From Pseudomonadota bacterium (lineage in GTDB: Bacteria; Pseudomonadota; Alphaproteobacteria; UBA828), in NCBI GenBank assembly GCA_027624955.1, contig JAQBTG010000025.1, positions 1 through 55,494 of the forward strand: a stretch of 55,494 nt of DNA, in the 5' to 3' direction. Positions 29,150-49,735 of the stretch are shown here, one piece after another. Every line of letters starts with the position of its first letter. The first letter of the stretch is position 1. Under the pieces are notes generated by a model. The model worked only from the letters and a program-made list of their open reading frames with translations, was not told where the DNA came from and did not search any database. The translations under genes were made by a program, and so were the position numbers.

Positions 29150-29167
29150 GCGGCGCCCGCGTCGCGG

Positions 29168-31168: not shown

Positions 31169-31170
31169 CG

Positions 31171-31917
31171 ATGACGGAAGCCTATAGCGAGAGAGACGGA
31201 TTCGCCGCCGAATATGTGCTGGGCACGCTCGAGGCGGCAGCGCGCCGCGAGGCCGAGGCGCTGTGTGCGCGCGATCCGGCATTCGCCGAACTGGTGGCCG
31301 CGTGGCAGCAACATTTGGCGCCGTTGGCTGATGACATCCAGCCCGTCGCGCCGCCGCCCGAACTTCTCGGCCGCATCGAAAAAATATTGGATATTCTCGG
31401 CGCAGCGCGTGCCGCCGCGCCACCGAAACTTCAACCCGGGCGTCAGGTCCGTACCGCGTGGCGCTGGTCGGCGTTCGGCGCCGGCGCCATTGCGGCGGCG
31501 CTGGCGATCTATATCGCCGCCACCGAGTTGATACCGGAAGCGCCAGGATTGCGTTATGTCGCTGTGCTGAATCAATCCGCGGCCACGCCGATGCTGATGG
31601 TGACGCTCGATTTCACCGCTGATCGCATGATCGTTCGCCCGGTGGCAGCGCCGGAGGCGGTGCTGGCGCGCCAGTTGGCGGCCGGTGAAAGGGCGCTTGA
31701 GTTATGGCTGGTGCCACCTGGTGGCGGCGCGCCGCGCTCGCTCGGCCTGCTCCCCACCGATGCTAAAATTTCGATCGCGCTGACGCCTGAAATGGAGAAA
31801 GTTCTCCTGAGCGCGGTGGCCCTGGCGGTGAGCGTGGAGCCGCCAGGCGGCTCGCCGAGCGGTGCGCCTACCGGCCCGGTGATCTATCAGGGCGCCGTCC
31901 TGCCGAGCGCCGGCTAG
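31171..31917 (+). CDS. RskA-type anti-sigma factor
   Basis: A 248-residue membrane protein. The N-terminal cytoplasmic part (AAEYVLGTLEAAARREAEAL, then FAELVAAWQQHLAPLA) is the anti-sigma domain, one transmembrane helix lies near residues 97-117 (FGAGAIAAALAIYIAATEL), and the remaining 130 residues form the periplasmic RskA domain with ALELWLVPPGGGAPRSLGLL. I chose the ATG at 31171, which has AAGGAA upstream and does not overlap the sigma gene; a longer frame starts at 31144. It should hold the ECF sigma factor inactive until a signal in the envelope. Confidence 0.92.
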   Translation: MTEAYSERDGFAAEYVLGTLEAAARREAEALCARDPAFAELVAAWQQHLAPLADDIQPVAPPPELLGRIEKILDILGAARAAAPPKLQPGRQVRTAWRWSAFGAGAIAAALAIYIAATELIPEAPGLRYVAVLNQSAATPMLMVTLDFTADRMIVRPVAAPEAVLARQLAAGERALELWLVPPGGGAPRSLGLLPTDAKISIALTPEMEKVLLSAVALAVSVEPPGGSPSGAPTGPVIYQGAVLPSAG

Positions 31918-34559: not shown

Positions 34560-35675
34560 ATGACAGCGGCTTTAGATGCTCTCCATGAAGATGTGTTTCG
34601 TAAGAACATGGCGCCCTTTTGGGCGGTCGATACCAGCGCCAACCATGACGAGGACCGCCAGGTCATGGACAAGAAAAAGGCGCTGCCGTTCGTTTGGAGA
34701 TACCGCGAGGATATCGAGCCGCTGCTGCTGCGCTCGGCCGAACTCATCACCATGGAATCGTCTGAGCGGCGTTCGCTGATATTGGTCAATCCTGGCCTCG
34801 CGCCGCGCCGCGCGTCGGTATCGACCATGTACACCGCCTACCGCTTGAACGACCCGCGCGAGATCATGCCGCCGCATCGCCATTCGCCAAACGCCATCCG
34901 CTTCGGTCTGACCGGCACGATGAATTTCACCGGCGTCGAGGGCGAAGATATTGTGTTTGGTCCTGGTGATATGGTGCTGACCCCGCATGACACCTGGCAC
35001 AATCATGGCAACCAGGGTGACGACCCGGCGGTAAATTTAAGCGTTCTCGATTTGCCGTTGGTCGAGACGTTGAACGCGACCTATTTTGAGCATGATTACA
35101 CTGAGGAAGTAGACGGCGAGCGGATTCGCAAGAATGTTCAGTCGGCCCGGGTGTCGAGCGAATATTCCCGCGAGATTTATAGCCGTGGCGGCATGATGCC
35201 GCGATTTGTCACGCATGACCGCGGCACCGGCAATGCCTCTCCAATGTATGTCTATCGCTGGGAAGTGATGCGCGAATTGCTGGAGAGTTTCCGCGATTGG
35301 GACGGCGATTCCTATGAGGGCCTGATCGTTGAATATGTCGACCCGACCAACGGCCAACCGGTTTTTAAAACCATCACTTTCTTCGCCCAGATGTTGCGCC
35401 CCGGAGAACGCACCCAGCCACTGAAACAGAATGCCAGCCTGTTGGTCGCACCGTTCGAGGGCAGCGGGCACAGTATCATCGGCGGCGAGCGCATCGACTG
35501 GGCGCCGTTCGACACGGTCGCGGTCCCGGGCGGCCACTGGTGCGAGCATGTCAACGGCTCTGACAGCGAACCGGCGGTCCTGTTTGTCGCCAGCGACGAG
35601 CCGACGCTGAAAGCGTTGGCGCTGTATCAAAAGCATGGCAAAACGCCCGAAGGCGACATCGTCAGAATCGACTGA
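34560..35675 (+). CDS. gentisate 1,2-dioxygenase-like bicupin
   Basis: A 371-residue double-cupin protein. The N-terminal cupin has the iron-binding residues of gentisate / salicylate / 1-hydroxy-2-naphthoate dioxygenases: MPPHRHSPNAIRFGLTG with His106 and His108, and TPHDTWHNHG with His147. The second cupin (from about residue 255) lacks the His pair. GAGGA precedes the ATG. Such enzymes cleave a ring beside a hydroxyl and a carboxyl group using Fe(II). In this locus the substrate could be a hydroxylated pyridine carboxylate instead of gentisate; that is inference. It lies 33 bases upstream of the LVIVD gene. Confidence 0.82.
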   Translation: MTAALDALHEDVFRKNMAPFWAVDTSANHDEDRQVMDKKKALPFVWRYREDIEPLLLRSAELITMESSERRSLILVNPGLAPRRASVSTMYTAYRLNDPREIMPPHRHSPNAIRFGLTGTMNFTGVEGEDIVFGPGDMVLTPHDTWHNHGNQGDDPAVNLSVLDLPLVETLNATYFEHDYTEEVDGERIRKNVQSARVSSEYSREIYSRGGMMPRFVTHDRGTGNASPMYVYRWEVMRELLESFRDWDGDSYEGLIVEYVDPTNGQPVFKTITFFAQMLRPGERTQPLKQNASLLVAPFEGSGHSIIGGERIDWAPFDTVAVPGGHWCEHVNGSDSEPAVLFVASDEPTLKALALYQKHGKTPEGDIVRID

Positions 35676-35708: not shown

Positions 35709-36836
35709 ATGGCGAAGGCCAGTAACACCGAACTTTTAGCCCATATCGACTGTCCTGGCGGCGGCCAGGTCTGGGTCGACGGTACGGTGCTTTATGTCGG
35801 ACATATGCGCGAGCCGAGCGGCACCACGATCATTGATGTCGCTGACCCGAAAAAACCGAAAGTCCTCAGCCGTATCGACATGCCGCAAGGCTGGCATTCG
35901 CACAAAGTGCGGGTCGCCGACGGAATTATGATCGTCAATCATGAGCGGCTCGGCCCGGAAGGTGATGAAGCGTTTGGCGGCGGCCTCGGCATATATGACG
36001 TTTCCAACCCGGCCAACCCGAAACCGATCGGCAAATGGCGGACTCATGGCCGCGGCGTACATCGCTATGATTTCGATGGGCGCTACGCTTATATCTCGCC
36101 GACGGCCGAAGGCTATATCGGCAATATCGTCATGATCCTCGATTTGGCGGACCCCACCAAACCCGAAGAAGTCGGGCGCTGGTGGATTCCCGGGCAGTGG
36201 CAGGCCGGTGGCGAAGCCTATCCGTGGGACGATTGGACACCCCCCCGATGCCACCATCCGATTCGGGTGGGCAATCGCCTGTATGTGAGCTATTGGCATC
36301 ACGGTTTCTTCATTCTCGACATCAACGATATGGCCAACCCGAAGGCGATCTCGGGCCTCAACACCTCGCCTAATTTCCCCCATCCCACCCATACCTGCCT
36401 GCCCTTTCCCGAGCCTCTTAAGGGACGTCAAGTGATGATCGTGGCGGATGAGGATGTCGCCAAACTGTGGCCCGCCGCGCCGGCCTTCACCTGGGTCTTC
36501 GACATTACCAACGAACTCAACCCAATCCCGATTTCGACTTTCCAGGTTGCTGGCGTTGATCCCGATGGTGCGCCGCAGCCGGCAATGACCGGATGTCACC
36601 AGCCGTCCGAGCGATTTGTCGGTACGGTCGTGCCGTTTGCCTGGTTTGCCCAGGGTTTGCGGCTGATCGATTTCGCCGATCCCTACAGCCCGCAGGAAGT
36701 CGGATATTACGAGCCCGATCCGCCGGCCGGTTTCGAGCGCGCCTCATCGAACGACGTCACCATCGATGATCGCGGCCTGATCTATCTGATCGATCGCCAA
36801 AATGGCGTCGATATAATTTCTTCATCGGTGATGTGA
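35709..36836 (+). CDS. LVIVD-repeat beta-propeller protein with ordered His residues
   Basis: A 375-residue protein built from LVIVD-type blades (TTIIDVADPKKPKVL, LGIYDVSNPANPKPIG, VMILDLADPTKPEEVG, FFILDINDMANPKAI, TWVFDITNELNPIPI, LRLIDFADPYSPQEVG). There is no signal peptide. His residues recur near the start of the inner strand of successive blades: His63/65, His118, His182/183 with 197/198, His225/228 and His297. That spacing suggests a metal centre in the channel, as in selenium-binding-protein / methanethiol oxidase propellers, though the family is usually annotated without function. It is co-directional with the cupin gene and probably works with it. Confidence 0.75.
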   Translation: MAKASNTELLAHIDCPGGGQVWVDGTVLYVGHMREPSGTTIIDVADPKKPKVLSRIDMPQGWHSHKVRVADGIMIVNHERLGPEGDEAFGGGLGIYDVSNPANPKPIGKWRTHGRGVHRYDFDGRYAYISPTAEGYIGNIVMILDLADPTKPEEVGRWWIPGQWQAGGEAYPWDDWTPPRCHHPIRVGNRLYVSYWHHGFFILDINDMANPKAISGLNTSPNFPHPTHTCLPFPEPLKGRQVMIVADEDVAKLWPAAPAFTWVFDITNELNPIPISTFQVAGVDPDGAPQPAMTGCHQPSERFVGTVVPFAWFAQGLRLIDFADPYSPQEVGYYEPDPPAGFERASSNDVTIDDRGLIYLIDRQNGVDIISSSVM

Positions 36837-36879: not shown

Positions 36880-37476
36880 ATGCTAAGACTGTTGGGGCGC
36901 GCGACCTCGGGCAATGTACAGAAGGTTCTCTGGCTGCTGGAAGAACTCGGGCTGAAATATAGCCGCGAGGATTATGGCCGCCAGTTCGAAAACACGGCGG
37001 ATGCGGCCTATCTCAGCCTCAACCCGACAGGCAAAGTGCCGACCCTGGTTGACGGTGCGACCGTGGTTTGGGAATCGAATACCATTCTTCGCTATCTTTG
37101 TAGTCGCGAGGGAAGTGCATTTTTACCCGCCGATACGTCGGCGCGTGCCCATGCCGAGCTTTGGATGGATTGGCAACTGGCGTCGCTCAACGGCCCCTAT
37201 TTGGATGTGTTTCGCGAATCCAAAAAACCTGAAGAAGAACGCGGTGAGCTGCAAAAATTTGGTGATGCGCTGGCGGCACAACTAAAGCTGCTCGATGGCC
37301 ATCTCAAGGGGCGTGATTGGCTCGCCGGTGACGCTCTAACGGTTGGCGAATTCGCGCTCGGGCCGATTATTCAGCGCTGCCTCAATTTCCCGATCAGCCT
37401 ACCTGATTTACCGCATCTTCGGCGATGGCAGGGCGGCCTCAGCGAACGTTCGGCATTCCAAAAAGTGGTGAAGTGA
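36880..37476 (+). CDS. glutathione S-transferase family protein
   Basis: A 198-residue two-domain GST: a thioredoxin-like N-terminal half (MLRLLGRATSGNVQKVLWLLEE region, NPTGKVPTLVDG with the cis-Pro, and VWESNTILRYL binding glutathione) and an all-helical C-terminal half with WLAGDALTVGEFALGPIIQR. AGGAG lies 9 bases before the ATG. Catabolic gene clusters often include a GST for isomerisation or thiol conjugation of ring-cleavage products; that role here is inference. The next gene starts 14 bases after its stop. Confidence 0.88.
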   Translation: MLRLLGRATSGNVQKVLWLLEELGLKYSREDYGRQFENTADAAYLSLNPTGKVPTLVDGATVVWESNTILRYLCSREGSAFLPADTSARAHAELWMDWQLASLNGPYLDVFRESKKPEEERGELQKFGDALAAQLKLLDGHLKGRDWLAGDALTVGEFALGPIIQRCLNFPISLPDLPHLRRWQGGLSERSAFQKVVK

Positions 37477-37490
37477 GAGCGGAACTGGAT

Positions 37491-38411
37491 ATGAAAAATG
37501 TAGCGGTCATCGGCATGGGCACCATGGGGCCCGGCATTGCCGCCACCCTGGCGCGCGGCGGCATGAATGTGCGCGGCTATGACACCAGCGCCGACGCCGT
37601 AGCGAAAAGCGACGCTCTGATAAGTGGCGCCTTTGGCGTGTTGGAGGCACTTGGTATGCCGGATCACGGCGGCGCTGAGAAAATCAGCATGAGCGATAGC
37701 CTCGCGGATTGTGTCGCTGGAGCTGATCTGGTGATCGAAACGGTGCCCGAAGATGTGGACCTTAAACTTGAACTTTTGGCCACGTTGGACGGGTTGGTGT
37801 CGCGCGAATGCGTGCTGGCCAGCGATACGTCGGGCATTCCAATCACTCGGCTGCAGCAAGGAAATTCCAATCCTGGCCGGGTCATCGGCATGCACTGGTC
37901 CAATCCACCGCATATTATCCCGATTATTGAGGTTGTCGCCGGGAAGGACACGGCGCCAGAAACGGTCGAGCGGATGACCGCCCTCATCCGGCAAATCAAT
38001 CTGCTGCCGATCCTGATCAAGAAGGACGTTCCGGGCTTCGTTGAAAACCGCGTTCTCTATGCGATCATGCGCGAATGCGTGGATTTAGTTGCGGACGGCG
38101 TCATCGACGCCGAAGCACTCGACCAATGCGTCTCTTGGGGCATCGGCTATAAGCTCAGTGTCGTCGGGCCGATGGCACTTCTCGATATGGCGGGGCTCGA
38201 TATCTATCAGGCGGTGGGAAGTTATCTGAACAAGGAATTGAGTACCCGCGACGATGTCAGCCCGCTGATTACCGAGCGAACGGCAGCCGGGCGTCTCGGC
38301 ATCAAAAGCGGCGGCGGGATCTTCGATTACACGCCGGAAAAGATTGCGGCGTTGCGCCAAGCCCGCGCACAAAAACTTGTCGCGGCGCGCAAGGCGCTGG
38401 AAAACAGTTAG
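37491..38411 (+). CDS. 3-hydroxyacyl-CoA dehydrogenase-fold enzyme, probable FHMPC 5-dehydrogenase
   Basis: A 306-residue NAD-dependent enzyme: Rossmann loop IGMGTMGPGIAATLARGG, then VIETVPEDVDLK, Ser114 in SDTSGIP, His135 in GMHWSNPPHIIP and Glu147 in IIEVV, then PGFVENRVLYAIMREC. HWSNPPHIIP replaces the HFFNP of fatty-acid enzymes, and SWGIGYKLSVVGPMALLDMAGLDIY matches my memory of Mesorhizobium loti 5-formyl-3-hydroxy-2-methylpyridine-4-carboxylate 5-dehydrogenase (mlr6793), a vitamin B6 catabolic enzyme of this fold. I start at ATG 37491, just before the Rossmann loop; a longer frame overlaps the GST gene. The nearby 4-pyridoxolactonase supports the specific call. Confidence 0.75.
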   Translation: MKNVAVIGMGTMGPGIAATLARGGMNVRGYDTSADAVAKSDALISGAFGVLEALGMPDHGGAEKISMSDSLADCVAGADLVIETVPEDVDLKLELLATLDGLVSRECVLASDTSGIPITRLQQGNSNPGRVIGMHWSNPPHIIPIIEVVAGKDTAPETVERMTALIRQINLLPILIKKDVPGFVENRVLYAIMRECVDLVADGVIDAEALDQCVSWGIGYKLSVVGPMALLDMAGLDIYQAVGSYLNKELSTRDDVSPLITERTAAGRLGIKSGGGIFDYTPEKIAALRQARAQKLVAARKALENS

Positions 38412-38548
38412 AAAAATCGGGTGGGGTGCCGTTGACCCGCTGCGCCGCCCGTTACAGAGTGTTATCGTAGCTCAGCAATCCGGGCTCGGCCCAGGAGCCG
38501 GCCCCGGCGGATTGGACGACAGCAATGCAAAAGGGAGGCAATCAACAA

Positions 38549-39613
38549 ATGCATAATTTAATTGCGAATACGACACGGCGCGCCGCCATAGCCGGGCTGG
38601 CACTCGCAGCTATGGTTGCGGTCAGCGTCGGCGCCCAGGCTGGCGATGTGGTGAAGAAGATTGCGGTGTTGGTACCGGAACAGGGCACCGATTACGGTTG
38701 GAACCAACAGGGCGTTGATGCCGCCCGCGCGGTGGCCAAAAAATACAATCTCGAATTCCTGCCAGCCGAAGGGCTCGGCTATGGCGATGTGCGCCCGACA
38801 TTGCGCGAATTGGCCGATGAAGGCGCCAGCCTGATGATCGCCCATGCCAGCGGCTACAACACCGCAGCGCCGGAAATCGCAGCCGAGACCGGTGTGCCAG
38901 TGGCAATTGTCGATAGGCCGGACGGCTTGGTCCCCGGTTTGGTTGGTGACTATACGCTAAGCGGCCATGACGGCGCCTATCTCGCAGGCATTCTCGCCGC
39001 CAAAATGAGCCGTACGGGAACGGTTGGCATCGTTGTTTCCGGAGAGCCACCGTCGTGGAACTCGCAATCGGCTGGTTTCGCCATGGGCGTCCAGGCAACC
39101 GGCATGGCCACCAAGATCGTCTATGCGGTGATCGGCCCGGCAGCTTATGCTGATGCGGCCGGTGGCCGGCGCGTGACTGAATCTGTGATTTCGGCCGGCG
39201 CCGATGTAATTTTTGGCCAAGGCAACGGCTCCAGCTTCGGCATGATTCAGGCGGTTGAAACCACCAAAGCGGTCGACGGTGGCAAGGCGTGGTTCATCGA
39301 TGTGATCGGCGACAAGACCGGGCTCGACAAGGGCCACCTCTTATCGTCGGTCCTGTGGGACATGATTCCCGTTTACAGCGCCATGGTCGAGGATCTGAAC
39401 GCCGGCAAATTCGGCACGGTTGGTTATACGATCGGCCTGGCCGACGATTCCGTGCGTTTGCTCAAGACCGATCACATCCCCGCCGGTATCTGGGACGAAC
39501 TGATGAAGGTTCGCCAGCAGATCATCGACGGTTCCGTTTCGGTCGCCGAAGTATATGACGCTCAAGAAGTCCGCGCTCTGATGACCTCTGTCGAGGCGCC
39601 AGCAGCGGAATAA
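38549..39613 (+). CDS. BMP-family ABC transporter substrate-binding protein
   Basis: A 354-residue periplasmic protein. A signal peptide (TTRRAAIAGLALAAMVAVSVG, cleaved after AQA) precedes a BMP/PnrA-like domain: VLVPEQGTDYGWNQQGVDAA, VIGPAAYADAAGGRRVTESVI, ADVIFGQGNGSSFGMIQA. Typical members bind nucleosides or purines. GGGAGG 10 bases before ATG 38549 decides this start over an ATG at 38525 inside the same leader. It is followed by its ATPase and two permeases, then by 4-pyridoxolactonase, so the ligand may be a vitamin B6 vitamer or another pyridine instead of a nucleoside. Confidence 0.88.
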   Translation: MHNLIANTTRRAAIAGLALAAMVAVSVGAQAGDVVKKIAVLVPEQGTDYGWNQQGVDAARAVAKKYNLEFLPAEGLGYGDVRPTLRELADEGASLMIAHASGYNTAAPEIAAETGVPVAIVDRPDGLVPGLVGDYTLSGHDGAYLAGILAAKMSRTGTVGIVVSGEPPSWNSQSAGFAMGVQATGMATKIVYAVIGPAAYADAAGGRRVTESVISAGADVIFGQGNGSSFGMIQAVETTKAVDGGKAWFIDVIGDKTGLDKGHLLSSVLWDMIPVYSAMVEDLNAGKFGTVGYTIGLADDSVRLLKTDHIPAGIWDELMKVRQQIIDGSVSVAEVYDAQEVRALMTSVEAPAAE

Positions 39614-39630
39614 CGCAGACCATCAACGAC

Positions 39631-39655
39631 GGGGAGGCCCCAGACGGGCCGCCCC
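39631..39655 (+). other. intercistronic hairpin after the binding-protein gene
   Basis: GGGGAGGCCC (39631-39640) pairs with GGGCCGCCCC (39646-39655), one mismatch, with a 5-base loop. It lies 17 bases after the stop of the binding-protein gene and before the ATPase gene, with no T run. Such hairpins commonly keep the binding-protein mRNA more abundant than the rest of an ABC operon. Confidence 0.6.
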
Positions 39656-39707
39656 GGTTTGGGCAAGCGTCGATGAAAATACGCAGCGCACGACCGGGAA
39701 GCATGTT

Positions 39708-41297
39708 GTGAACCCGGCGGCTGACCAGGCGCCCGCAGTATCGCTGCACGCTATCACCAAGCGCTTTCCCGGCGTGCTGGCGAATGATGATATCTCGCTC
39801 GCCTTCCATGCCGGCGAGGTGCATGCGCTTCTTGGTGAAAATGGTGCTGGCAAATCTACTCTGATCGGCATTCTCGCCGGCATGCAACAGCCGGACGGCG
39901 GCCATATCGAAATCGCCGGTGCGCGGGTGCGGATCAGCTCGCCGCGTGAGAGTCTCCGCCTGCGGATCGGCACGGTTTTTCAACATGTACTGCTGGTCAA
40001 CAGCTTGACGGTTATTGAAAACCTCATGCTTGGCGGCGTGTGGTGGCGCAAGCATGACCGCAAAACGGCGCTAGGCCGATTTCACGAAATTTCAGAATTG
40101 CTCGGTGTTAAAATCGATCCAGAAGTGCCGGTCGGCCGCGTTTCACTCGGCCAACAGCAGCAGATTGAAATCATCCGTGCGCTTTGGCATGGCGGAAACG
40201 TGTTGGTGCTGGACGAGCCGACTTCCATGCTCACGCCGCATGGCGTCGAGGAATTAGGCGGCGTCATGCGGCGGCTCCGCGACCAGGGCGTCGCCATCAT
40301 CTTTGTCACCCACAAACTGCGCGAAGCCTATGCGTTTGGCGATCGTATATCGGTACTGCGTCGCGGGCGGCTCGTCGGTGATATCCCGCCGGAGCGCTTA
40401 AGCGCCATGGCGGAGGAGGAGGCGACCGATGAAATCATCCGCTTAATGTTCCGCGGCGCGGGGGAGGCGGACAATGCCGACGCCGAAACATTGGTGCGCG
40501 AGGGACACGCCAAACGGGCACGCGTCGCGTTCGATCGCGCAGCCATTGCAGCAATCACGCTTAACAATATTGTGACGCGCGCCGAGCCTGGGGAATGCGC
40601 GCTCGATGACATCAGCTTCTCCGTTAAACCCGGCGAAGTGTTTGGCATAGCCGGTGTGGACGGCAACGGCCAAAAGCATCTGGCCGAAGTGCTGGCTGGG
40701 CAGCGACCGGCGTTGTCGGGCACCATCGAAGTAAATGGCAAGCCGGCTGATCAAGACGGAGTTCCGGCCCGCCGGCGCCTCGGCGTGCGCTATATCACCG
40801 ATGAGCGGCTTGGCGAGGGAACGGTGGCGGGGCACTCCGTTGCCACCAATCTCGTGCTCAAGGAGATTGGCGCGCCGCCCTATTGGCAAGATGGCGTGAC
40901 TTTGTGGCAGCGTATCTTTCGCCATGCCCGACAAGTTATTGAGACTCACGATATCCGTACACCGTCGGAGCATACGCAACTCGGGCGGCTGTCCGGCGGC
41001 AATATCCAAAAGGTTCTGCTGGCGCGTGAAATCTCCGCCGATTCGTCTGTGGTGATCTTCAACAAACCAACTTATGGGCTTGACCTGCAGAACACCCGCT
41101 TGGCGCGCGAGCGAATTATCGCGGCGGCGGAAGAGGGCATCGCGACCATTGTCATATCGACGGAATTGGACGAATTACTTGAACTTTGCGATCGCGTTGG
41201 CGTGATGTTCGGTGGTGAACTGTCCGGCATCGTCGATAATCATGGCAACGCCGAAGCGCAAATCGGGCGTTTGATGACCGGGGCAAAAGCGGCATGA
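39708..41297 (+). CDS. BMP-type ABC importer, double ATP-binding protein
   Basis: A 529-residue protein with two ABC domains. The first is complete: Walker A GENGAGKSTLIG, signature VSLGQQQQIEI, Walker B VLVLDEPTSML and the HKLREA switch. The second is degenerate: GVDGNGQKHLAEVLAG in place of Walker A, a normal LSGGNIQKVLLAREI signature, but VVIFNKPTYGLD, which lacks the catalytic Glu. One working and one weak site is usual for sugar/nucleoside importers of this class. The start is GTG at 39708. It powers the transporter with the two following permeases. Confidence 0.9.
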   Translation: MNPAADQAPAVSLHAITKRFPGVLANDDISLAFHAGEVHALLGENGAGKSTLIGILAGMQQPDGGHIEIAGARVRISSPRESLRLRIGTVFQHVLLVNSLTVIENLMLGGVWWRKHDRKTALGRFHEISELLGVKIDPEVPVGRVSLGQQQQIEIIRALWHGGNVLVLDEPTSMLTPHGVEELGGVMRRLRDQGVAIIFVTHKLREAYAFGDRISVLRRGRLVGDIPPERLSAMAEEEATDEIIRLMFRGAGEADNADAETLVREGHAKRARVAFDRAAIAAITLNNIVTRAEPGECALDDISFSVKPGEVFGIAGVDGNGQKHLAEVLAGQRPALSGTIEVNGKPADQDGVPARRRLGVRYITDERLGEGTVAGHSVATNLVLKEIGAPPYWQDGVTLWQRIFRHARQVIETHDIRTPSEHTQLGRLSGGNIQKVLLAREISADSSVVIFNKPTYGLDLQNTRLARERIIAAAEEGIATIVISTELDELLELCDRVGVMFGGELSGIVDNHGNAEAQIGRLMTGAKAA

Positions 41298-41349
41298 CGC
41301 TACCGTTTTATAGAGGCTGGAGCGCCGCTGCCGGGATCGGCCTGGCGCG

Positions 41350-42372
41350 ATGATTTCCTCCGTCTCACGCGTTTTACTGCCGATCGTCTTGGCGCTCGTT
41401 GTCGGCGGGCTGATCCTTCTCGCGCTCGGCAAAGATCCGCTTGCCTATTACGATTGTGTTCTGCAACGCGGGCTCTTCAGCTGGAGTGGATTCCAACAGA
41501 CCGTCATCCGCTCGGCGCCCCTGCTGCTGATTGCCTCGGGACTGATCGTCGCCTTCCGGGCCGGCATCTGGAACCTTGGCGTCGATGGGCAATTCCTGCT
41601 TGCCGCGGTCGCTTCCGCCGCATTAGCGCCGCTTCTCATCTCGTCTCTGCCGTCTTGGCTGACCATCGTCATTTGCTGCGCGGTCTCCATCCTGGTGGCG
41701 ATGACCTGGTCTCTGGTGCCGGCATTTTTGAAAATTCGCTACGGGCTGAACGAGATCATCACCACCTTGATGATGACTTTTCTTGGCATTAGTTTGGCCA
41801 ACGTGCTGGTCAAGCTTCCGTTTAACGATCCCACCAATAGCGTGCCGCAAACCATGACGTTGCCGGTGGCGGACCGCTTGGGGCGGCTGTTCGATACCAC
41901 CATCCATAGCGGTATCATCATTGCCTTGGCGGCGGTTTTTGCCGTTCATTTCGTCATGACGAGAACGGCGTTCGGGCTTAGATTGCAAATCGTCGGCGCC
42001 AATCCACGCGCCGCCAAACATGCTGGGCTGAGTGTCGGGCGCCTGACCTACGCCACATTTGCACTTAGCGCCGGCCTCACCGGTCTTGGCGGCGCGGTAG
42101 AGATTCTTGGCGTGTGGGGAACCATGCGGGCGGATTGGAATCCGGCCTATGGGCTGCTGGTCGTGCCGCTGGTTTTTCTCGCCCGCTTCAATGGCATCGC
42201 GGTGATCGGGTTTACGCTGTTTTTCGCCATCCTCATGATCGGCGGCGAGAGTGCGTCGCGGAAGTTGGGGGTGCCCAATTTCTACGTGCTGGTTCTCGTC
42301 GCGCTGCTGCTCATTTTCCTCGCCCTGGTCGAGTATCTTGATCATCTGTCACGCCAGCGCAGGAGGGCCTGA
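41350..42372 (+). CDS. ABC transporter permease (BMP/sugar class), first subunit
   Basis: A 340-residue inner membrane protein with about nine hydrophobic segments. FRAGIWNLGVDGQFLLAAV and YGLNEIITTLMMTFLGISLANVLVK are the family signatures (BPD_transp_2), and GANPRAAKHAGLSVGRLTYATFALSAGLTGLGGAVEILG is the cytoplasmic coupling loop that meets the ATPase. Its stop lies 3 bases before the start of the second permease, whose AGGAGG ribosome binding site lies inside this gene's end. Confidence 0.92.
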   Translation: MISSVSRVLLPIVLALVVGGLILLALGKDPLAYYDCVLQRGLFSWSGFQQTVIRSAPLLLIASGLIVAFRAGIWNLGVDGQFLLAAVASAALAPLLISSLPSWLTIVICCAVSILVAMTWSLVPAFLKIRYGLNEIITTLMMTFLGISLANVLVKLPFNDPTNSVPQTMTLPVADRLGRLFDTTIHSGIIIALAAVFAVHFVMTRTAFGLRLQIVGANPRAAKHAGLSVGRLTYATFALSAGLTGLGGAVEILGVWGTMRADWNPAYGLLVVPLVFLARFNGIAVIGFTLFFAILMIGGESASRKLGVPNFYVLVLVALLLIFLALVEYLDHLSRQRRRA

Positions 42373-42375
42373 GAG

Positions 42376-43311
42376 ATGGACGGGCTTTTTACCGAGATTT
42401 TTGTCGCATCGTTGTTGTTCGGCGCGGTGACAGTCGGAATCCCCTTGCTCCTCGCTGGCTTGGGCGAGCAGATTTCCGAAAAGGCCGGCGTGCTCAATAT
42501 CGGCATCGAAGGCATGATGCTGATGGGCGCCTATGGCGGGTTTGTCGTGGCCTATTATACCGGCTCCTTCTGGCTCGGATTTCTCGCCGGCGGCATGGCC
42601 GGAATGGTCGTCGCATCGCTGATGGTGCTGTTCTGCGTCATTCTCAGCATGAATCAAATTGTCATTGGGATCGCGCTTACCATCGGCGCGGAGGGGCTTA
42701 CGGCGCTCCTCCATCATTTCCAGTTTAGCCGCACCTATCCGCGGCTTTCGGAAGTGCCGACCCTGGATATTCCCGGGCTGAAAGAAATCCCGGTGATCGG
42801 CCCGGCGTTGTTCGAGCGCCACGCCATCGTCTATCTTGCCGTGCTGCTGGTGGTGTTTGTTGCCTGGTTGTTTCGGCGCACCCATATCGGGCTTAATCTT
42901 CAGGCCGCCGGTGACAAACCAGCGGCGCTCGATGCCGCCGGTGTTGATGTCAAATTGACACGCGCCGCCGCCGTTCTCACCACCGGCCTGCTCGCCGGTA
43001 TTGGCGGCGCTTTTATGGCCAATGTTGGGGCGGGTCTGTTTGTCCCGTTCATGACCCACGGCGCTGGGTTCATCGGCATCGTTCTTGCCATGCTCGCGCG
43101 CGGGCATCCGTTTTGGGTTCTGCTTGGCGCGGCGTTGTTCGGCGGCAGCCTAGCGCTGACCACAGCGCTTCAGGTGGCCGGTTTGAATATACCGACCGAT
43201 GTCGTCCAGATGCTGCCGTTCGCGATGGTGATTGTGGTGCTGGTGCTGTTCGCGCGGCATAGCTATTTGCCGCCGGCCCTGGCGCTTCCCTATCATCGCG
43301 GAGAACGGTGA
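42376..43311 (+). CDS. ABC transporter permease (BMP/sugar class), second subunit
   Basis: A 311-residue inner membrane protein with about eight to nine hydrophobic segments. GEQISEKAGVLNIGIEGMMLMGAYGGFVVAYYTGS is the hallmark N-terminal part of the second permease of nucleoside-type importers, and AAGDKPAALDAAGVDVKLTRAAAVLTTGLLAGIGGAFM is the coupling loop. AGGAGG (42361-42366) precedes the ATG. The gene ends 35 bases before 4-pyridoxolactonase on the same strand. Confidence 0.92.
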   Translation: MDGLFTEIFVASLLFGAVTVGIPLLLAGLGEQISEKAGVLNIGIEGMMLMGAYGGFVVAYYTGSFWLGFLAGGMAGMVVASLMVLFCVILSMNQIVIGIALTIGAEGLTALLHHFQFSRTYPRLSEVPTLDIPGLKEIPVIGPALFERHAIVYLAVLLVVFVAWLFRRTHIGLNLQAAGDKPAALDAAGVDVKLTRAAAVLTTGLLAGIGGAFMANVGAGLFVPFMTHGAGFIGIVLAMLARGHPFWVLLGAALFGGSLALTTALQVAGLNIPTDVVQMLPFAMVIVVLVLFARHSYLPPALALPYHRGER

Positions 43312-43346
43312 TGAAATTGACTGGTATGCTAGGCAGGAGTTAGGCG

Positions 43347-44153
43347 ATGAGCGCGAACAAGGTTTATCTTTTGGATGGTGGCTCGTTGGTGATCGACGGT
43401 TATCACGCCTTTTGGAATCGAGGGCCCGGCGGCGAAATCCGCTTTCCGTGTTATTCGGTTCTGATCGACCATCCGGACGGGCTTTACATTTTCGATACCG
43501 GATATGATCACGCCCATGTCGAGCGCGTATTACCATTCGAAAAACCACAGCAAACCGAGGCGCAGACGATCCCCGGGCAGTTGGCAGCGGTGGGCTTAAA
43601 GTCGAGCGACATCAACTATGTCATCAACTCGCATTATCACTTCGATCATTGCGGCGGCAATATTCACCTGACCGAGGCGTGCACGCTGTGTCATGCCAAA
43701 GAGCTTGAAGCCTGTGCATCTCCGCATCCGTTCGAAGTTCTGGGCTATTCAGATTTGAACTTTTCGCCGGAGATTAGAGACAAGCGCGGCTTGGAAGCGC
43801 CGCCGGAACCGGCGCTTGATATCTACACGCCAAAATTCGAAACGCTCAGCAACGATCAGGAAATCGCCAAGGGTTTATGGCTGTTCGAGACGCCCGGCCA
43901 CACCGCGGGCCATTACAGTCTAATGGTGGAACTGGCCGGCCGCCGCCCAATGCTGTTTTCCGCCGATGCCTGTTACAGCAAGAAGAATATGGATTTGATG
44001 TGCATTTCGAGTTTCCACCTCGATCCGGTGGCTAGTTTCCAATCCATGCTGCGCCTGAAGGAACTGGCGGAGAAATTTGACGCGGAACTCTTCTATTCGC
44101 ACGATCCGAAAAGCTTTCCCAACTATCTGCTGGCGCCAAATTTCTATTCGTGA
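43347..44153 (+). CDS. 4-pyridoxolactonase (metallo-beta-lactamase fold)
   Basis: Hydrolyses 4-pyridoxolactone to 4-pyridoxic acid in vitamin B6 degradation (EC 3.1.1.27). It has 268 residues, the length I recall for the M. loti enzyme, and the N terminus KVYLLDGGSLVIDGYHAFWN with RGPGGEIRFP matches it closely in memory. The two-zinc site is complete: His96, His98, Asp100, His101 (SHYHFDHCGG), His185 (TPGHTAGH), Asp207 (FSADACYS) and His252 (YSHDPKSF). N-acyl homoserine lactonases share the fold but not the N-terminal segment. AGGAG precedes the ATG. It closes the transporter operon and converges with pyridoxamine-pyruvate aminotransferase. Confidence 0.87.
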   Translation: MSANKVYLLDGGSLVIDGYHAFWNRGPGGEIRFPCYSVLIDHPDGLYIFDTGYDHAHVERVLPFEKPQQTEAQTIPGQLAAVGLKSSDINYVINSHYHFDHCGGNIHLTEACTLCHAKELEACASPHPFEVLGYSDLNFSPEIRDKRGLEAPPEPALDIYTPKFETLSNDQEIAKGLWLFETPGHTAGHYSLMVELAGRRPMLFSADACYSKKNMDLMCISSFHLDPVASFQSMLRLKELAEKFDAELFYSHDPKSFPNYLLAPNFYS

Positions 44154-44182
44154 GGGCTTGGCCGTTACGGATCTAGCTGGCG

Positions 44183-45361
44183 TCAGGCGATGTTCGGTAT
44201 TTCTGCCATGGCGGCCTCGATCCCACGACCGATATCCGCAGTGATACCGTAGTGGCGGACGGCGGCACCAAACACCGCGACGGCGGCGATAGCATAAATC
44301 GGCTCTGCCACCGGTCCCATGTGACCGATGCGGATCAGTTTGTCATATGTCTCCCGACTTCCGGCTGAAAGCGTTACGCCATAGGTTTGCCGCGCTACGC
44401 TGTGGATTTGTTTGGTGGTTAGACCGCCGGGAATCTTGACGGCAGTTGTGGTTGGCGCGGCAATCGATTCGCGCGCCGGCCAGAGTTCCAGCCCCATCGC
44501 CTTGATGCCGGCGCGGCACGCCCGTGCCGTCAGTGCATGGCGCTGCCAGACAACTTCCGGCCCTTCTTCCAAATAGTGATCGAGCGCGGCGTCGAGACCC
44601 TGCACTTCCGATACCGACGGCGTGAATGGATACCTGTTCTCCTTGCGCCACGCGTCTTTCCAATCGAGCAGACTGAGTACGGACGCACGCGGCGCGGTTT
44701 GATTATTTTCCATATGCGCCCAGGCGGCCTCGCTCACATCAAGAATGGAGAGCCCAGGCGAGCTGCCGAGGCATTTCCCGGGGCCGGTAATGAAAATGTC
44801 GGCCGCACAACTTCCTGGATGGACATCCATGCCGGCAAATGACGAAACGGCGTCGACCAACAACAGCGCGCCGTGAGCCTTGACCACCGCGCCGATCTCG
44901 TCGATCGGATTGATGGTGCCTGACGGCGTGTCGTGATGAACGGCGGAGACGATAGTGACATCCGGATTGGCGCGGAGCGCCTCCGCCACCTGCGCCGGGT
45001 CGATGGCCTCGTTATAGGCCACTTCCACTTCCGTCAGCCGCTTGCAATGGCGCGTCGCCCAATGGCCGAAGCCCTTACCATACACGCCGGAGGCCAGATT
45101 CAGCACGGTATCGTTGGCCGAGATGAGCGATGCTGCCGCCGCCTCAATCGCCACCGCCGGCTCGGCATGCAGGATGAGGGCTGGATTATCACTTCGCATG
45201 GCGCGGCCGGCCTTCAAACAGACCTGCTCATAAAAATTTAGAAAATAGGAGTCGTAGTCGTAGGGTACCGGCCGTGACAATGCTTCCTGGACGCACGGAT
45301 AGATCGCGACCGGGCCGGACGTCAATGTCATGGTCGGCGCCTTGATCGGTGTATTTCCCAT
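44183..45361 (-). CDS. ppaT: pyridoxamine-pyruvate aminotransferase
   Basis: Transfers the amino group of pyridoxamine to pyruvate, giving pyridoxal and alanine (EC 2.6.1.30), without PLP as a cofactor. The 392-residue fold-type I protein follows the M. loti enzyme in many segments: SGVYGKGFGHWATRH, YNEAIDPAQVAEAL, HHDTPSGTINPIDEIGA, VDAVSSFAGMDVHP, FTPSVSEVQGLD and IRIGHMGPVAEPIYAIAA. Lys196 in ITGPGKCLG corresponds to its pyridoxal-binding lysine. Ser- and Ala-glyoxylate aminotransferases are the nearest alternative. I start at ATG 45361, 7 bases after GAGGGA. It diverges from the GMC oxidase across 74 bases. Confidence 0.86.
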   Translation of the reverse strand: MGNTPIKAPTMTLTSGPVAIYPCVQEALSRPVPYDYDSYFLNFYEQVCLKAGRAMRSDNPALILHAEPAVAIEAAAASLISANDTVLNLASGVYGKGFGHWATRHCKRLTEVEVAYNEAIDPAQVAEALRANPDVTIVSAVHHDTPSGTINPIDEIGAVVKAHGALLLVDAVSSFAGMDVHPGSCAADIFITGPGKCLGSSPGLSILDVSEAAWAHMENNQTAPRASVLSLLDWKDAWRKENRYPFTPSVSEVQGLDAALDHYLEEGPEVVWQRHALTARACRAGIKAMGLELWPARESIAAPTTTAVKIPGGLTTKQIHSVARQTYGVTLSAGSRETYDKLIRIGHMGPVAEPIYAIAAVAVFGAAVRHYGITADIGRGIEAAMAEIPNIA

Positions 45362-45435
45362 GCCGGGTTCCCTCTTGCTGGTCAGAGGGCAATATACCGT
45401 GCATCGCTGCCGTCGGTAAGTCATTATCGCGTTCG

Positions 45436-47004
45436 ATGCGACAGGCAACTCGGTTCGATTACGTGATCGTCGGCGCCGGCAGCGCGGGCTGTGTACTCGC
45501 CGCCCGGCTCAGCGAAGACAGCAACACGCGCGTCGCTCTTGTCGAGGCCGGCGGGCCGGCGGATGACCCAGCCATCGCCGATCCGGCGCGTTGGCCGTTC
45601 CTCGCCGGCGCGTCGTGCGATTGGAACTACAAAACGCACGCCCAAGCGCACACCGCCGGGCGCCGGCATGATTGGCCGCGCGGCAAGGTTATCGGCGGCA
45701 CCAGCTGCCTGAACGCGATGGCACATGTGAGAGGGCACCCGGCAGATTTCGACTGCTGGGTTGAAGACGGTTGCCCGGGTTGGGGATACGCCGATCTCTT
45801 GCCATATTTCATCCGCTCTGAAACCAGCAGCTTCGCCGCCTCGCCATATCATGGCGTAGCGGGCCCGGTCTCCCTTCTCACCCCAGAGCACCCGAACCCG
45901 TTAACCCAAAGTTTTTTGGCCGCCGGCGAAGAATGCGGCTTCAAGCCAACGGAAGAGCATAACGGAGCACGGCTGACCGGGCCGACTCTCAACACACTGA
46001 CTATTGTCGACGGTCAACGGCAAAGCGTTGCCGATGCCTATTTGGCTCCGGCTATGGGGCGGGAAAATCTCACTGTCCTCGTACATTGCCGGGCGCGGCG
46101 CCTTCTGTTCGCGAGCGGCGACCACTGCCGGGGTATCGAAGTAGACCAGTATGGGGAGCGCCTGGAAATAACCGCTGAGCAATCGGTTATTCTTGCCGCG
46201 GGTGCCATCGGCTCGCCCGCTCTGCTGTTGCGTTCCGGCATCGGGCCGGCCCAGGATTTGCGCGATGTCGGCATAGCGTGCCGTATCGATCTGCCGGGCG
46301 TCGGCCGCAATTTGCAGGATCATCTGCTTGGCGCCGGCAATCTCTACGCCGCGGCCCGGCCGGTGCCGCCGTCGCGCTATCAACATTCGGAAGCGCTGCT
46401 CTATGCCCGTCTTGCAGATCAGGAAGGCGCGCCCGAACTGGTGGTCGCCTGCGTCTTGCTGCCGGCGGTGACCGAATGTTTCAACGCTCCGGCGGTGGGC
46501 GCTGCGTACACTTTGATGTTCGGCTTCACCCACCCCGCAAGCCGGGGGGTCATTCGCCTGGTTTCGGACGATCCTGATTCGCCGCCGCTCATCGACCCGG
46601 CTTACCTCAGTGCGCCGCAAGACCTCACAAGGTTTGCCGCGTCATTGGATTTGGCACGCCGCATCGGTAGCGCCAAGGCACTCGCAGAGTGGCGCCAGAG
46701 TGAGTTGCTGCCCGGCCCGTCGGTCAAAACCGATCCGGGGCGGCGCGATTTTCTACAGCGCGCCGCCCATACCCATCACCATCCTGTTGGTACCTGCCGC
46801 ATGGGAACGGATAGTGGGGCGGTGGTGGGGCCGGGTCTCAGACTACGCGGTGCCGACGGACTTTATGTCGTCGATGGTTCGGCGATGCCGAGCCTCACCA
46901 CCGGGCCGGTCAATGCCGTGATTGTCGCTATCGCCGAGCGCGCCAGCGACATCATTCGAGATCGCGTGCCGCTTGCGCCGATTTTTTCCGTCCGCTCGGA
47001 TTGA
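45436..47004 (+). CDS. GMC oxidoreductase, probable pyridoxine 4-oxidase
   Basis: A 522-residue FAD enzyme of the glucose-methanol-choline family: [21 protein letters not shown] binds FAD, WPRGKVIGGTSCLNAMAHVRG is GMC signature 1 and AAGAIGSPALLLRSGIG signature 2. In the active site it has His447 and His449 (THHHPVGTCRMG) and Pro491 (TTGPVNAVI) where most family members have Asn or His. M. loti pyridoxine 4-oxidase is reported with His460, His462 and Pro504, the same spacing. That enzyme oxidises pyridoxine to pyridoxal with oxygen. A neighbouring aminotransferase also yields pyridoxal. I chose ATG 45436; an upstream frame lacks family similarity. Confidence 0.8.
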   Translation: MRQATRFDYVIVGAGSAGCVLAARLSEDSNTRVALVEAGGPADDPAIADPARWPFLAGASCDWNYKTHAQAHTAGRRHDWPRGKVIGGTSCLNAMAHVRGHPADFDCWVEDGCPGWGYADLLPYFIRSETSSFAASPYHGVAGPVSLLTPEHPNPLTQSFLAAGEECGFKPTEEHNGARLTGPTLNTLTIVDGQRQSVADAYLAPAMGRENLTVLVHCRARRLLFASGDHCRGIEVDQYGERLEITAEQSVILAAGAIGSPALLLRSGIGPAQDLRDVGIACRIDLPGVGRNLQDHLLGAGNLYAAARPVPPSRYQHSEALLYARLADQEGAPELVVACVLLPAVTECFNAPAVGAAYTLMFGFTHPASRGVIRLVSDDPDSPPLIDPAYLSAPQDLTRFAASLDLARRIGSAKALAEWRQSELLPGPSVKTDPGRRDFLQRAAHTHHHPVGTCRMGTDSGAVVGPGLRLRGADGLYVVDGSAMPSLTTGPVNAVIVAIAERASDIIRDRVPLAPIFSVRSD

Positions 47005-47020: not shown

Positions 47021-47566
47021 TTATGTGACTGCGCGCCCTTTGCCGATACGCGGATGCGGCCGGCCGCCATCGGAGACCGCCATTACAATTATGATTTCAT
47101 TGGGCCGCGGTGCATCGGCCACAGTGACGGTGATCGTTTCGAATTCATCGAACGACCAGATATTGTCCTTGTTGGCGAGTGGCACATCGATCGACGCGCC
47201 GGCGCTACCCACCTTGGCCGTATGGGGGATGATCGATTCACCGCCGCCGACGGCGGCGCGCATGGGTTTTCCGAGAGTTGGGTGAAGCACCGCCGCAGCA
47301 TGTTCGACGTCGCCGTTAACCCCGACGATCGCTGATTTTCCATATGCCACCGGCGCGCCGTCAAGCATCGCCACCGCCTGGGGCATCAGCTCTTCACCGA
47401 TTGCCAGGGCGGTGTCGAACAATTTCGACAAATCCATTTCAAACTTCCCGGCAAAGGGATTGTCGATCACCGCAATGGCGGCAACCCGGCACACCGGACG
47501 AAGCGCCGGGCTGCCCGCCTCGGCGGTGATCCGCTCTTTAACAAATATAGTTTTTCTTACCGTCAT
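47021..47566 (-). CDS. DUF1185 'amino acid synthesis' family protein
   Basis: A 181-residue cytoplasmic protein of the DUF1185 family. It starts MTVRKTIFVKERITAEAG, then VAAIAVIDNPFAGKFEMDLSKLFD, YGKSAIVGVNGDVEHAAAVLHPTLGKPMR and a C-terminal NEIIIVMAVSDGGRPHPRIGK. The family is small and has no proven reaction; members often sit in catabolic clusters for heterocycles or amides. GGAGG precedes the ATG by 10 bases. It converges with the GMC oxidase gene and diverges from the secreted-protein gene at 47670, so a shared promoter region lies at 47567-47669. Confidence 0.85.
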   Translation of the reverse strand: MTVRKTIFVKERITAEAGSPALRPVCRVAAIAVIDNPFAGKFEMDLSKLFDTALAIGEELMPQAVAMLDGAPVAYGKSAIVGVNGDVEHAAAVLHPTLGKPMRAAVGGGESIIPHTAKVGSAGASIDVPLANKDNIWSFDEFETITVTVADAPRPNEIIIVMAVSDGGRPHPRIGKGRAVT

Positions 47567-47669: not shown

Positions 47670-48104
47670 GTGTTCAGCAAAGCATTTGTTTATATTGGGC
47701 TGCTCGTGCTCATCCTATTGCCGCTCAGTGGACGGGCCGCCGAGCCGTCAGGGCCAAGCGCGCCGGTGCGCCTTGAGATCGTTAGTGCGACGGCGACATC
47801 TCGCCTCGCCTGTCAGCTCGTGCTGGCCCATTTCGTCACCCAGGACATCGCGTCGATTCCGGCCGGGGGTGAGGCCGTGATCGTACTGGATCGGGATTTA
47901 GATGACGGCACATTGATCTATCGGCATGACGGCGGACGGCGCATGGCGGTAGAAAATATCCTCTGCGGCGTTGCCGCCAATTGGCGGGCGACTCGCGCTG
48001 ATTTAAATCTGGCCGCGTTGCGTGCCGGCCGGCGCGCCAATTTAAGAATTATCTGCGAAGCACCGAAAGCGCTGTCCTGCACGGCCGTCGGCATGGCGGA
48101 ATGA
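47670..48104 (+). CDS. small secreted protein coupled to a GMC dehydrogenase
   Basis: I do not recognise a family. The 144-residue product has a signal peptide (about residues 1-23, [19 protein letters not shown]) and four Cys residues in the mature part (RLACQLV, ILCGVAA, IICEAP, LSCTAVG) that could form two disulfides. The start is GTG at 47670 with only a weak ribosome binding site. Its stop codon overlaps the start of the second GMC gene (ATGA at 48101-48104), so the two are translated together. It may be a periplasmic partner or inhibitor of that enzyme; this is inference from position. Confidence 0.7.
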
Positions 48105-49735
48105 GTCCGCCCAACAGCTACGACTATGTAATTGTCGGGGCGGGCTCGGCGGGCTGTACCTTGGCGAATCGACTGTCGGCCGATCCCGGTGTCAGCGTGC
48201 TGGTGCTGGAAGCCGGCGGCTGGGACCGCGATCCGTGGATACATATTCCGCTTGGTTGGGGCAAGATATTGCAGGGTCGGCTGCATGATTGGGGGTATTA
48301 TTGTGAGCCCGAAGACAATGTAAATGGCCGCCGGGTGGAGTGCGCGCGCGGCAAGGTTATCGGTGGCTCATCGTCAACCAATGCCATGGCTTATGTGCGC
48401 GGCAATCCGGCGGATTACGATGGTTGGGCTGCATCAGGCCTCAGCGAATGGTCCTATGCCCATGCCTTGCCATATTTCCAAAAGCAGGAAACCTGGGAAG
48501 GCGGCGGCGGTGATTATCGCGGCGGGTCGGGACCGCTGGGCACGCAATTCTGCCGTTACCGCGACCCGCTGGTCGAAGCCTTCGCTGCGGCCGGCCAGGC
48601 AGCCGGTTTCGGCTGGACCGATGACTATAATGGAGCAAAGCAGGAGGGCTTCGGGCGCTTGCAAATGACCATTCGGAACGGCCGGCGGTCGAGCGGTGCG
48701 TCCGCTTATTTGCGCCCGGTGTTGCGGCGGCAAAACCTCTCCATCAAGACCCGGGCGTTGACCACGCGCGTCAATTTCGAAGGCGGCACCGCGACCGGGG
48801 TGGACTATGTGAAAGACGGCCAAACCCACTCGGTGCGGGCGGAGCGCGAAGTGATTCTCGCGGGCGGGGTGATCAATACGCCGCAATTGCTGATGCTCTC
48901 GGGCATTGGCGATGCGGCTGAGTTGAAGGCGCAGGGCATCCCGGTTGAAGTGGCGCTGCCAGGTGTCGGCAAGAATTTGCGCGACCATGTGTCGGTTGTC
49001 CTCCTATATCAACGCCGCGAGCCAGGACCGTTCCACCGCAACATGCGCGCCGATCGAATCGTCCGCGAACTCGCCAAGGCCTATTTGTTCGGCAAGGGAT
49101 TTGCCGCCGACGTGCCGGGCGGCGTTGTCGCCTTTTTGAAGAGTGGGCCCGATGTTGTATTGCCAGATCTGCAATATCTTTTCACCGCCGCGCCGTTCGG
49201 CGCCGGGCCCTATTTCAAACCCTTCAAGCAGCCGTTTGCCGATGGCTTTGCCACCCGCCTGGTCATGCTGCAGCCGGAAAGCCGCGGCACGGTGAGCCTG
49301 GTTTCAGCCGACCCGACGGCGCATCCTCGCATCTGGCAGAATTTTCTTGCCCGTGATGCCGATTGGCGGACACTCCGTGCTGGCGTGCGGATTGCCCGCG
49401 ACATCGCTGCGCAGAGCCCGCTCGCGCCATTCATCGCCAAGGAAATTATGCCCGGCAGTGATAAGGTTTCGGATGAAGCGATCGACGAAGTGATCCGCAA
49501 CACAGCGATCACCGTGCACCATCCTCTCGGCACCTGCCGCATGGGGACCGATGACGACGAAATGGCCGTGGTGGACCCAGAACTGCGGGTTCGCGGTACT
49601 CAGGGCCTGCGTGTCGTTGACGCCTCAGTGATGCCGACACTCGTGCGTGGCAATATCAACGCCGCAGTGGTCATGATCGCAGAAAAGGCGGCGGACCTCA
49701 TCGCCGGGCGTGGCGTTTTAGCGCCGCGCAATTGA
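48101..49735 (+). CDS. GMC family FAD-dependent dehydrogenase
   Basis: A 544-residue flavoenzyme with [59 protein letters not shown] and the C-terminal [11 protein letters not shown] with [17 protein letters not shown]. Here the second active-site position is the usual Asn, unlike the GMC oxidase 1 kb upstream, so it is probably a dehydrogenase for an alcohol. As I recall, 4-pyridoxic acid dehydrogenase of M. loti is also a GMC protein of this size, which makes this gene a candidate for that step; choline dehydrogenase-like enzymes are the alternative. It has no signal peptide of its own. Confidence 0.82.

Follow-up and report, generated by a model that had tools for sequence, protein, structure and literature searches.

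Gene content of the B6 locus

Contig 25 of an alphaproteobacterial genome (assembly GCA_027624955.1; 3.58 Mb in 84 contigs, 98% complete) contains homologues of vitamin B6 degradation genes together with genes for an ATP-binding cassette (ABC) importer of the basic membrane protein (BMP) class. The stretch of 55,494 nucleotides from this contig is referred to here as the window. Within the genome collection this genome is most closely related to uncultured Alphaproteobacteria, some of them marine. Importer subunits and enzymes were assigned with the curated cut-offs of NCBIfam (release 20), Pfam families and best PDB matches. On balance we favor the interpretation that the region is a vitamin B6 utilization cluster in which a BMP importer is combined with degradation, and in which a cupin dioxygenase replaces the ring-opening step of the Mesorhizobium loti pathway.

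An earlier note, made from the sequence of the window, had placed a complete BMP-class importer and four B6 degradation genes between positions 37491 and 47004. All of these genes are present with the starts, strands and spacing that it described, and each of the four importer subunits (38525–43311) exceeds its cut-off. The limits that it gave were too narrow, as the cluster also takes in genes for the cupin (34560), an LVIVD-repeat protein (35709) and a GST-fold protein (36880). These three genes had been overlooked and lie directly upstream of the gene for 5-formyl-3-hydroxy-2-methylpyridine 4-carboxylate (FHMPC) dehydrogenase. The 3′ limit is probably 49735, the end of a second GMC enzyme gene. 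The cluster reads as follows.

34560–35675, + strand: gentisate/5-aminosalicylate 1,2-dioxygenase-like bicupin (NF049978, 219.9 bits, and TIGR02272, 204.3 bits, both far below cut-off; PDB 2d40, E=2e-49)
35709–36836, + strand: LVIVD-repeat beta-propeller (PF08309)
36880–37476, + strand: GST-fold protein (PF02798/PF13409; weak match to TIGR01262, maleylacetoacetate isomerase, 43 bits)
37491 (ATG)–38411, + strand: FHMPC 5-dehydrogenase (NF042925; PDB 4om8)
38525–39613, + strand: BMP-class periplasmic binding protein of the putative B6 importer (NF047927, 474.6 bits vs cut-off 400)
39708–41297, + strand: importer double-ATPase subunit (NF047930, 762.4 bits vs cut-off 670)
41350–42372, + strand: importer permease subunit 2 (NF047929, 538.3 bits vs cut-off 400)
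42376–43311, + strand: importer permease subunit 1 (NF047928, 540.3 bits vs cut-off 465)
43347–44153, + strand: 4-pyridoxolactonase (NF047925, 449 bits vs cut-off 325; PDB 3aj3, E=3e-97)
44183–45361, − strand: pyridoxamine-pyruvate aminotransferase, PPAT (NF046070, 605.8 bits vs cut-off 600; PDB 2z9u, E=3e-152)
45436–47004, + strand: pyridoxine 4-oxidase (PNOX)-like GMC oxidoreductase, divergent from PPAT (PDB 4ha6)
47021–47566, − strand: PF06684 'AA_synth' protein (L012 copy 80% identical)
48101–49735, + strand: second GMC oxidoreductase, candidate 4-pyridoxate dehydrogenase (PF00732/PF05199)

Homologues of the upper pathway enzymes

The M. loti pyridoxine/pyridoxamine degradation pathway consists of PNOX, PPAT, pyridoxal 4-dehydrogenase (PLDH), 4-pyridoxolactonase, FHMPC dehydrogenase, MHPCO and AAMS hydrolase. 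Of the four enzymes that had been assigned to this pathway, PPAT, 4-pyridoxolactonase and the PNOX homologue are supported, and the fourth is a probable FHMPC dehydrogenase. The FHMPC dehydrogenase-like protein encoded upstream of the importer scored 493.9 bits with NF042925, slightly under the cut-off of 500, and its best PDB match was FHMPC dehydrogenase itself (4om8, E=3e-118), with acyl-CoA dehydrogenases ranking far behind. The pyridoxolactonase gene begins 35 bp 3′ of the importer on the same strand and encodes the full two-zinc site (H96/H98/D100/H101, H185, D207 and H252). Downstream, PPAT was identified by NF046070 and 2z9u, and the PNOX-like GMC enzyme matched pyridoxine 4-oxidase (4ha6) with E=7e-152 vs 5e-89 for the next enzyme. 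The second GMC gene was linked in L012, L013, L014, L022 and L084 (61–80% identity), and because it recurs in the cluster we consider its product a candidate 4-pyridoxate dehydrogenase.

The correspondence to the M. loti pathway is incomplete. The window genome has no PLDH of the SDR family above cut-off (best score 200.8 bits vs 325) and no MHPCO candidate was found (see below), whereas the window cluster contains the linked cupin, LVIVD and GST genes, joined by a RidA gene in relatives, as well as a dedicated importer. No M. loti-type cluster was present in the genome sample. The missing PLDH leaves a gap in the proposed route. A gene for the SDR-type PLDH lies between the lactonase and PPAT genes in L012 (398 bits) and L019, and at other positions in most sister clusters; the corresponding spacing in the window is 29 bp. 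At this place L011, a close relative, is without both the lactonase and the dehydrogenase. Unless a different dehydrogenase takes over the PLDH step, the pathway is in decay.

A linked cupin is a candidate ring-opening dioxygenase

The cupin and FHMPC dehydrogenase genes were linked in 12 loci including the window, with the LVIVD gene present every time. In a survey of 289 alphaproteobacterial genomes, FHMPC dehydrogenase, 4-pyridoxolactonase and the cluster-type cupin shared exactly one set of four genomes, each of which carried the importer; with the window's own genome set aside, the importer accompanied FHMPC dehydrogenase and pyridoxolactonase in three of three. The cluster-type cupins of these four carriers scored 746–783 bits, and the next cupin in the survey scored 342.

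We compared 12 cluster cupins with salicylate 1,2-dioxygenase (SDO) and two gentisate 1,2-dioxygenases (GDOs). The cluster cupin shares the bicupin architecture and 3-His iron site of gentisate, salicylate and 5-aminosalicylate 1,2-dioxygenases: the iron ligands H106/H108/H147 were invariant, as were R70, R114 and H149, which correspond to SDO Arg83, Arg127 and His162. In contrast, Gln108, Trp172 and Asp174 of SDO, three residues reported to show strict conservation among the known GDOs (PMC11264262), were replaced by Arg95, Asn159 and Ser161 in all 12, and the cluster cupin was not seen in a gentisate cluster. The extra arginine and the lost aspartate would be in keeping with a substrate that carries a second carboxylate. 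The nearest non-cluster relative (L112, G157:C13:8000-27900; 42% identity) is encoded ~7 kb away from a gene resembling those for 2,5-dihydroxypyridine dioxygenase.

The LVIVD protein is 72–85% identical across 10 clusters, and its invariant His and Cys residues (e.g. H63, H65, H118, C181, H182, H183, H225, H228, C230, C296 and H297) suggest that the beta-propeller holds a metal site. The GST gene recurs in the cluster, and its product is a possible isomerase of the ring-opened product. A RidA-family gene lies between the LVIVD and GST genes in eight sister clusters (L013, L014, L016, L019, L022, L076, L079 and L084) and is absent from this interval of the window. Members of the RidA family hydrolyze imines and enamines.

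MHPCO, which we take to be a group A FAD monooxygenase of the Pfam family FAD_binding_3, was sought with that family in the four carrier genomes; no NCBIfam model for MHPCO was identified, and NF047926, considered as a possible model, proved to be an unrelated integrase. In this Pfam-based search, which did not use the M. loti sequence as query and in which the G163 matches L108 and L111 fell outside the NCBIfam scan, no MHPCO candidate was found among the three FAD_binding_3 proteins of the window genome (UbiH-type, geranylgeranyl-reductase-like and salicylyl-CoA hydroxylase) or in the four carriers together, whose FAD_binding_3 proteins were UbiH-type or of unrelated types. Among the proteins scanned, UbiH was the only such type found in more than one of the four.

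These results bear on a second explanation, in which the importer functions as described, the late steps follow the M. loti route with its 3-hydroxy-2-methylpyridine-4,5-dicarboxylate (HMPDC) decarboxylase, MHPCO and AAMS hydrolase encoded elsewhere, and the cupin, LVIVD and GST proteins act on some other aromatic compound. The presence of every upper-pathway homologue except PLDH would be expected in this case, and the cupin family otherwise acts on gentisate, salicylate and 5-aminosalicylate. Nevertheless, we consider the explanation unlikely, as it is at odds with the MHPCO search, with the adjacent cupin and FHMPC dehydrogenase genes occurring in the same 4 of 289 genomes, and with substrate contacts unlike those of GDO and SDO.

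Proposed pathway

For the B6 utilization cluster that we favor, we infer the importer ligand, every reaction and the order of the late steps as follows. The importer would bring in a non-phosphorylated B6 compound, most likely pyridoxine, pyridoxamine or pyridoxal, with 4-pyridoxate also possible. Pyridoxine 4-oxidase and PPAT would both yield pyridoxal, which would be converted to 4-pyridoxolactone by a dehydrogenase not found in the window genome. The lactonase would then produce 4-pyridoxate, a GMC dehydrogenase (probably 48101–49735) would oxidize 4-pyridoxate to FHMPC, and FHMPC dehydrogenase would generate HMPDC. HMPDC can be viewed as an aza-salicylate in which the C3 hydroxyl and C4 carboxylate correspond to the chelating pair of salicylate, with a second carboxylate at C5. 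The cupin may chelate HMPDC through its 3-OH and 4-COOH groups on the 3-His Fe(II) and cleave the C3–C4 bond. The predicted product is an imine of pyruvate joined to an aminomethylene-oxaloacetate unit, which would be hydrolyzed (by RidA in many sister clusters) and isomerized by the GST to give central metabolites.

We regard the case as evenly balanced that this is a second, undescribed lower branch of B6 degradation, fed by a BMP-type importer, in which opening of HMPDC by the cupin followed by RidA and GST replaces the decarboxylase, MHPCO and AAMS hydrolase. An alternative ring-opening branch is a more informative claim than the importer, which is already a database prediction. If true, the cupin step would add pyridine ring opening to the reactions of a family whose known substrates are gentisate and salicylate, and genomes without MHPCO could not be scored as unable to degrade B6.

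Linkage of the importer family to B6 genes spans at least two phyla

All four importer subunits passed the cut-offs of the NCBIfam 'putative B6 ABC transporter' models (NF047927–NF047930), a family that is itself a prediction and has the same subunit set as the window (BMP binding protein, ATPase and two permeases). Because NCBIfam already gives the family this name, the B6-importer hypothesis is on record as a curated prediction and is not new. The earlier note knew of no characterized BMP-class B6 importer, and we found no experimental work on the family in searchable papers, a search that most subscription journals lie outside. The characterized ABC-type B6 importers belong to other classes. 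P5PAB of Actinobacillus, an importer shown experimentally to be specific for pyridoxal 5′-phosphate (PMC8427247), relies, as the window importer is predicted to, on binding-protein-dependent ABC import of a B6 vitamer, but its AfuA-type binding protein is specific for the phosphate ester and differs in class from that of the window. HmpT is an ECF system for pyridoxamine (PMC4860826). Even E. coli and B. subtilis are reported to have no identified transporter for vitamin B6 (PMC9997740). An importer family with strong genomic support can thus be taken directly into binding assays and used to predict B6 uptake from genomes.

We compared the neighborhoods of the BMP proteins across genomes, as the earlier note had suggested. 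A scan of 84,980 species genomes for relatives of the binding protein gave 25 loci, and more came from plasmids and the 289-genome survey. Counting the window and the neighbors within the flank considered, with many other loci stopping at a contig edge, the importer was accompanied by PPAT in 19 loci, by 4-pyridoxolactonase in 16 and by FHMPC dehydrogenase in 15. Linkage to B6 enzymes recurred in Alphaproteobacteria and, at 46–49% binding-protein identity, in Chloroflexota; the Chloroflexota loci L028 and L032 contained the lactonase, importer, PPAT and FHMPC dehydrogenase genes, with binding proteins only 46–48% identical to that of the window. The binding protein family is discrete, with 7 of the 289 alphaproteobacterial genomes scoring 462–495 bits and the next score being 117. 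The linkage of the importer to B6 genes is not due to chance.

Judged from its sequence and gene context, the window importer is likely to import vitamin B6. The proposal that such an importer takes up a B6 vitamer or related 3-hydroxypyridine is thus consistent with the recurrent linkage and with the loss of ribose contacts described below; its coupling to degradation does not extend to all carriers. Genomes G037, G263 and G159 have the importer but neither FHMPC dehydrogenase nor pyridoxolactonase anywhere in the genome, with PPAT beside the importer in G037 and G263. Because the two degradation enzymes are missing from all three genomes and two of them keep PPAT, part of the family is probably used for salvage, or for a different pyridine, and not for degradation.

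Several observations, in addition to the PLDH gap and the Pfam basis of the MHPCO search, weigh against a B6 utilization cluster as we have drawn it. The AlphaFold2 model of the cupin was poor (pLDDT 56) and too weak for use. The cluster edge is unsure because an acyl-CoA dehydrogenase gene at 33132 is not generally conserved across clusters. No partner genes were recognized for the importer relatives of Desulfobacterales, and L026 has a ribokinase-like gene downstream of the importer. L026 and L017 share 92.6% identity up to the point where the last permease gene ends, beyond which they diverge, the lactonase gene following in L017 and the ribokinase-like gene further on in L026. Molybdopterin hydroxylase-like genes lie near the importer copy of G159, and in Thioclava (L036) an importer relative without PPAT lies beside an HpaB/amidase pyridine cluster.

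The last two cases could mean that the importer accepts hydroxypyridine carboxylates or related N-heterocycles in general, B6 compounds being one cargo among several. The same could be said of Rhizobium and Ochrobactrum plasmids (L034, L035 and L037), where the importer, PPAT and a distinct lactonase lie beside another pyridine-degradation cluster. We consider a generalist quite improbable: PPAT is the commonest partner and is kept in G037 and G263, which lack FHMPC dehydrogenase and pyridoxolactonase, the Chloroflexota retain the B6 gene set, and the likely pocket residues of the binding protein (W59, H107, W178, N179, Y208 and D259, among others) are invariant in all 23 aligned family members. 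Members of the family may differ in their exact cargo, and the plasmid cluster may be another B6 degradation route. It contains HpaB-like, flavin reductase, 2,5-dihydroxypyridine dioxygenase-like, amidase, MmgE/PrpD and GntR genes. A plasmid search with FHMPC dehydrogenase as query returned only generic 3-hydroxyacyl-CoA dehydrogenases at ~40% identity or less.

Other transporter genes were observed near B6 clusters. A TRAP transporter (DctP/DctM) recurs next to the cluster in L013, L015, L019 and L022 and may serve as an additional importer, of an acidic intermediate such as 4-pyridoxate. In the Chloroflexota locus L028, a second ABC transporter, of the branched-chain-amino-acid type (Peripla_BP_6, LivH-like; L028:13246-16443) directly follows FHMPC dehydrogenase.

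The binding protein has lost the ribose contacts of nucleoside binders

The AlphaFold2 model of the window binding protein (pLDDT 84) has the BMP fold of PnrA, BmpD and Lbp (Foldseek, E=1e-19 to PnrA; TMt 0.85 to BmpD). The statement in the earlier note that BMP importers with known ligands bind nucleosides or purines was too narrow, as riboflavin-binding RfuA (4iil) is also among the fold matches. RfuA thus sets a precedent for vitamin binding by a protein of this fold.

In BmpA, the residues reported to contact the nucleoside include Asp98, Phe151, Asp225 and Lys242 (PMC13325309). By alignment, the ribose contacts Asp98, Asp225 and Lys242 correspond to Thr113, Ile261 and Trp278 in the window protein. 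The Thr and Ile are found in all 23 aligned family members, and the Lys242 position is Trp in 19, Phe in 3 and Met in 1. Phe151 is replaced by Gln or Met at 181, and the stacking residue Phe27 mostly by Val. Asp19 is largely retained (D in 21, N in 2), whereas every one of the 23 has Tyr at the position of Phe176. Thus, the ribose contacts and one stacking Phe of the nucleoside binders are replaced, changes that argue against a nucleoside ligand and leave the identity of the ligand itself unspecified. Nucleoside import as the main function was rejected on these grounds. That the importer is an ordinary nucleoside or purine BMP system adjoining B6 genes by chance is highly improbable despite its nearest solved folds (PnrA, Lbp and BmpD) and the ribokinase-like gene in L026, given the lost contacts in 23 of 23 relatives, the B6 linkage in at least two phyla and the wide score gap to other BMP proteins. 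B6-linked members were scattered over a BMP family tree, which had low support and a single outgroup on a very long branch and was read only for their spread.

Neighboring genes

A promoter scan of the region gave no signal above chance. Upstream of the cluster, an APH-family kinase gene lies next to a class-III aminotransferase gene (28100–30448). The best NCBIfam match of the aminotransferase is the C-terminal part of the fusion protein PRK06148, so that the pair resembles a split version of this protein. An ECF sigma factor gene and an overlapping gene for an RskA-type anti-sigma factor follow at 30596–31917, and a gene for a ferritin-like protein begins at 32067.

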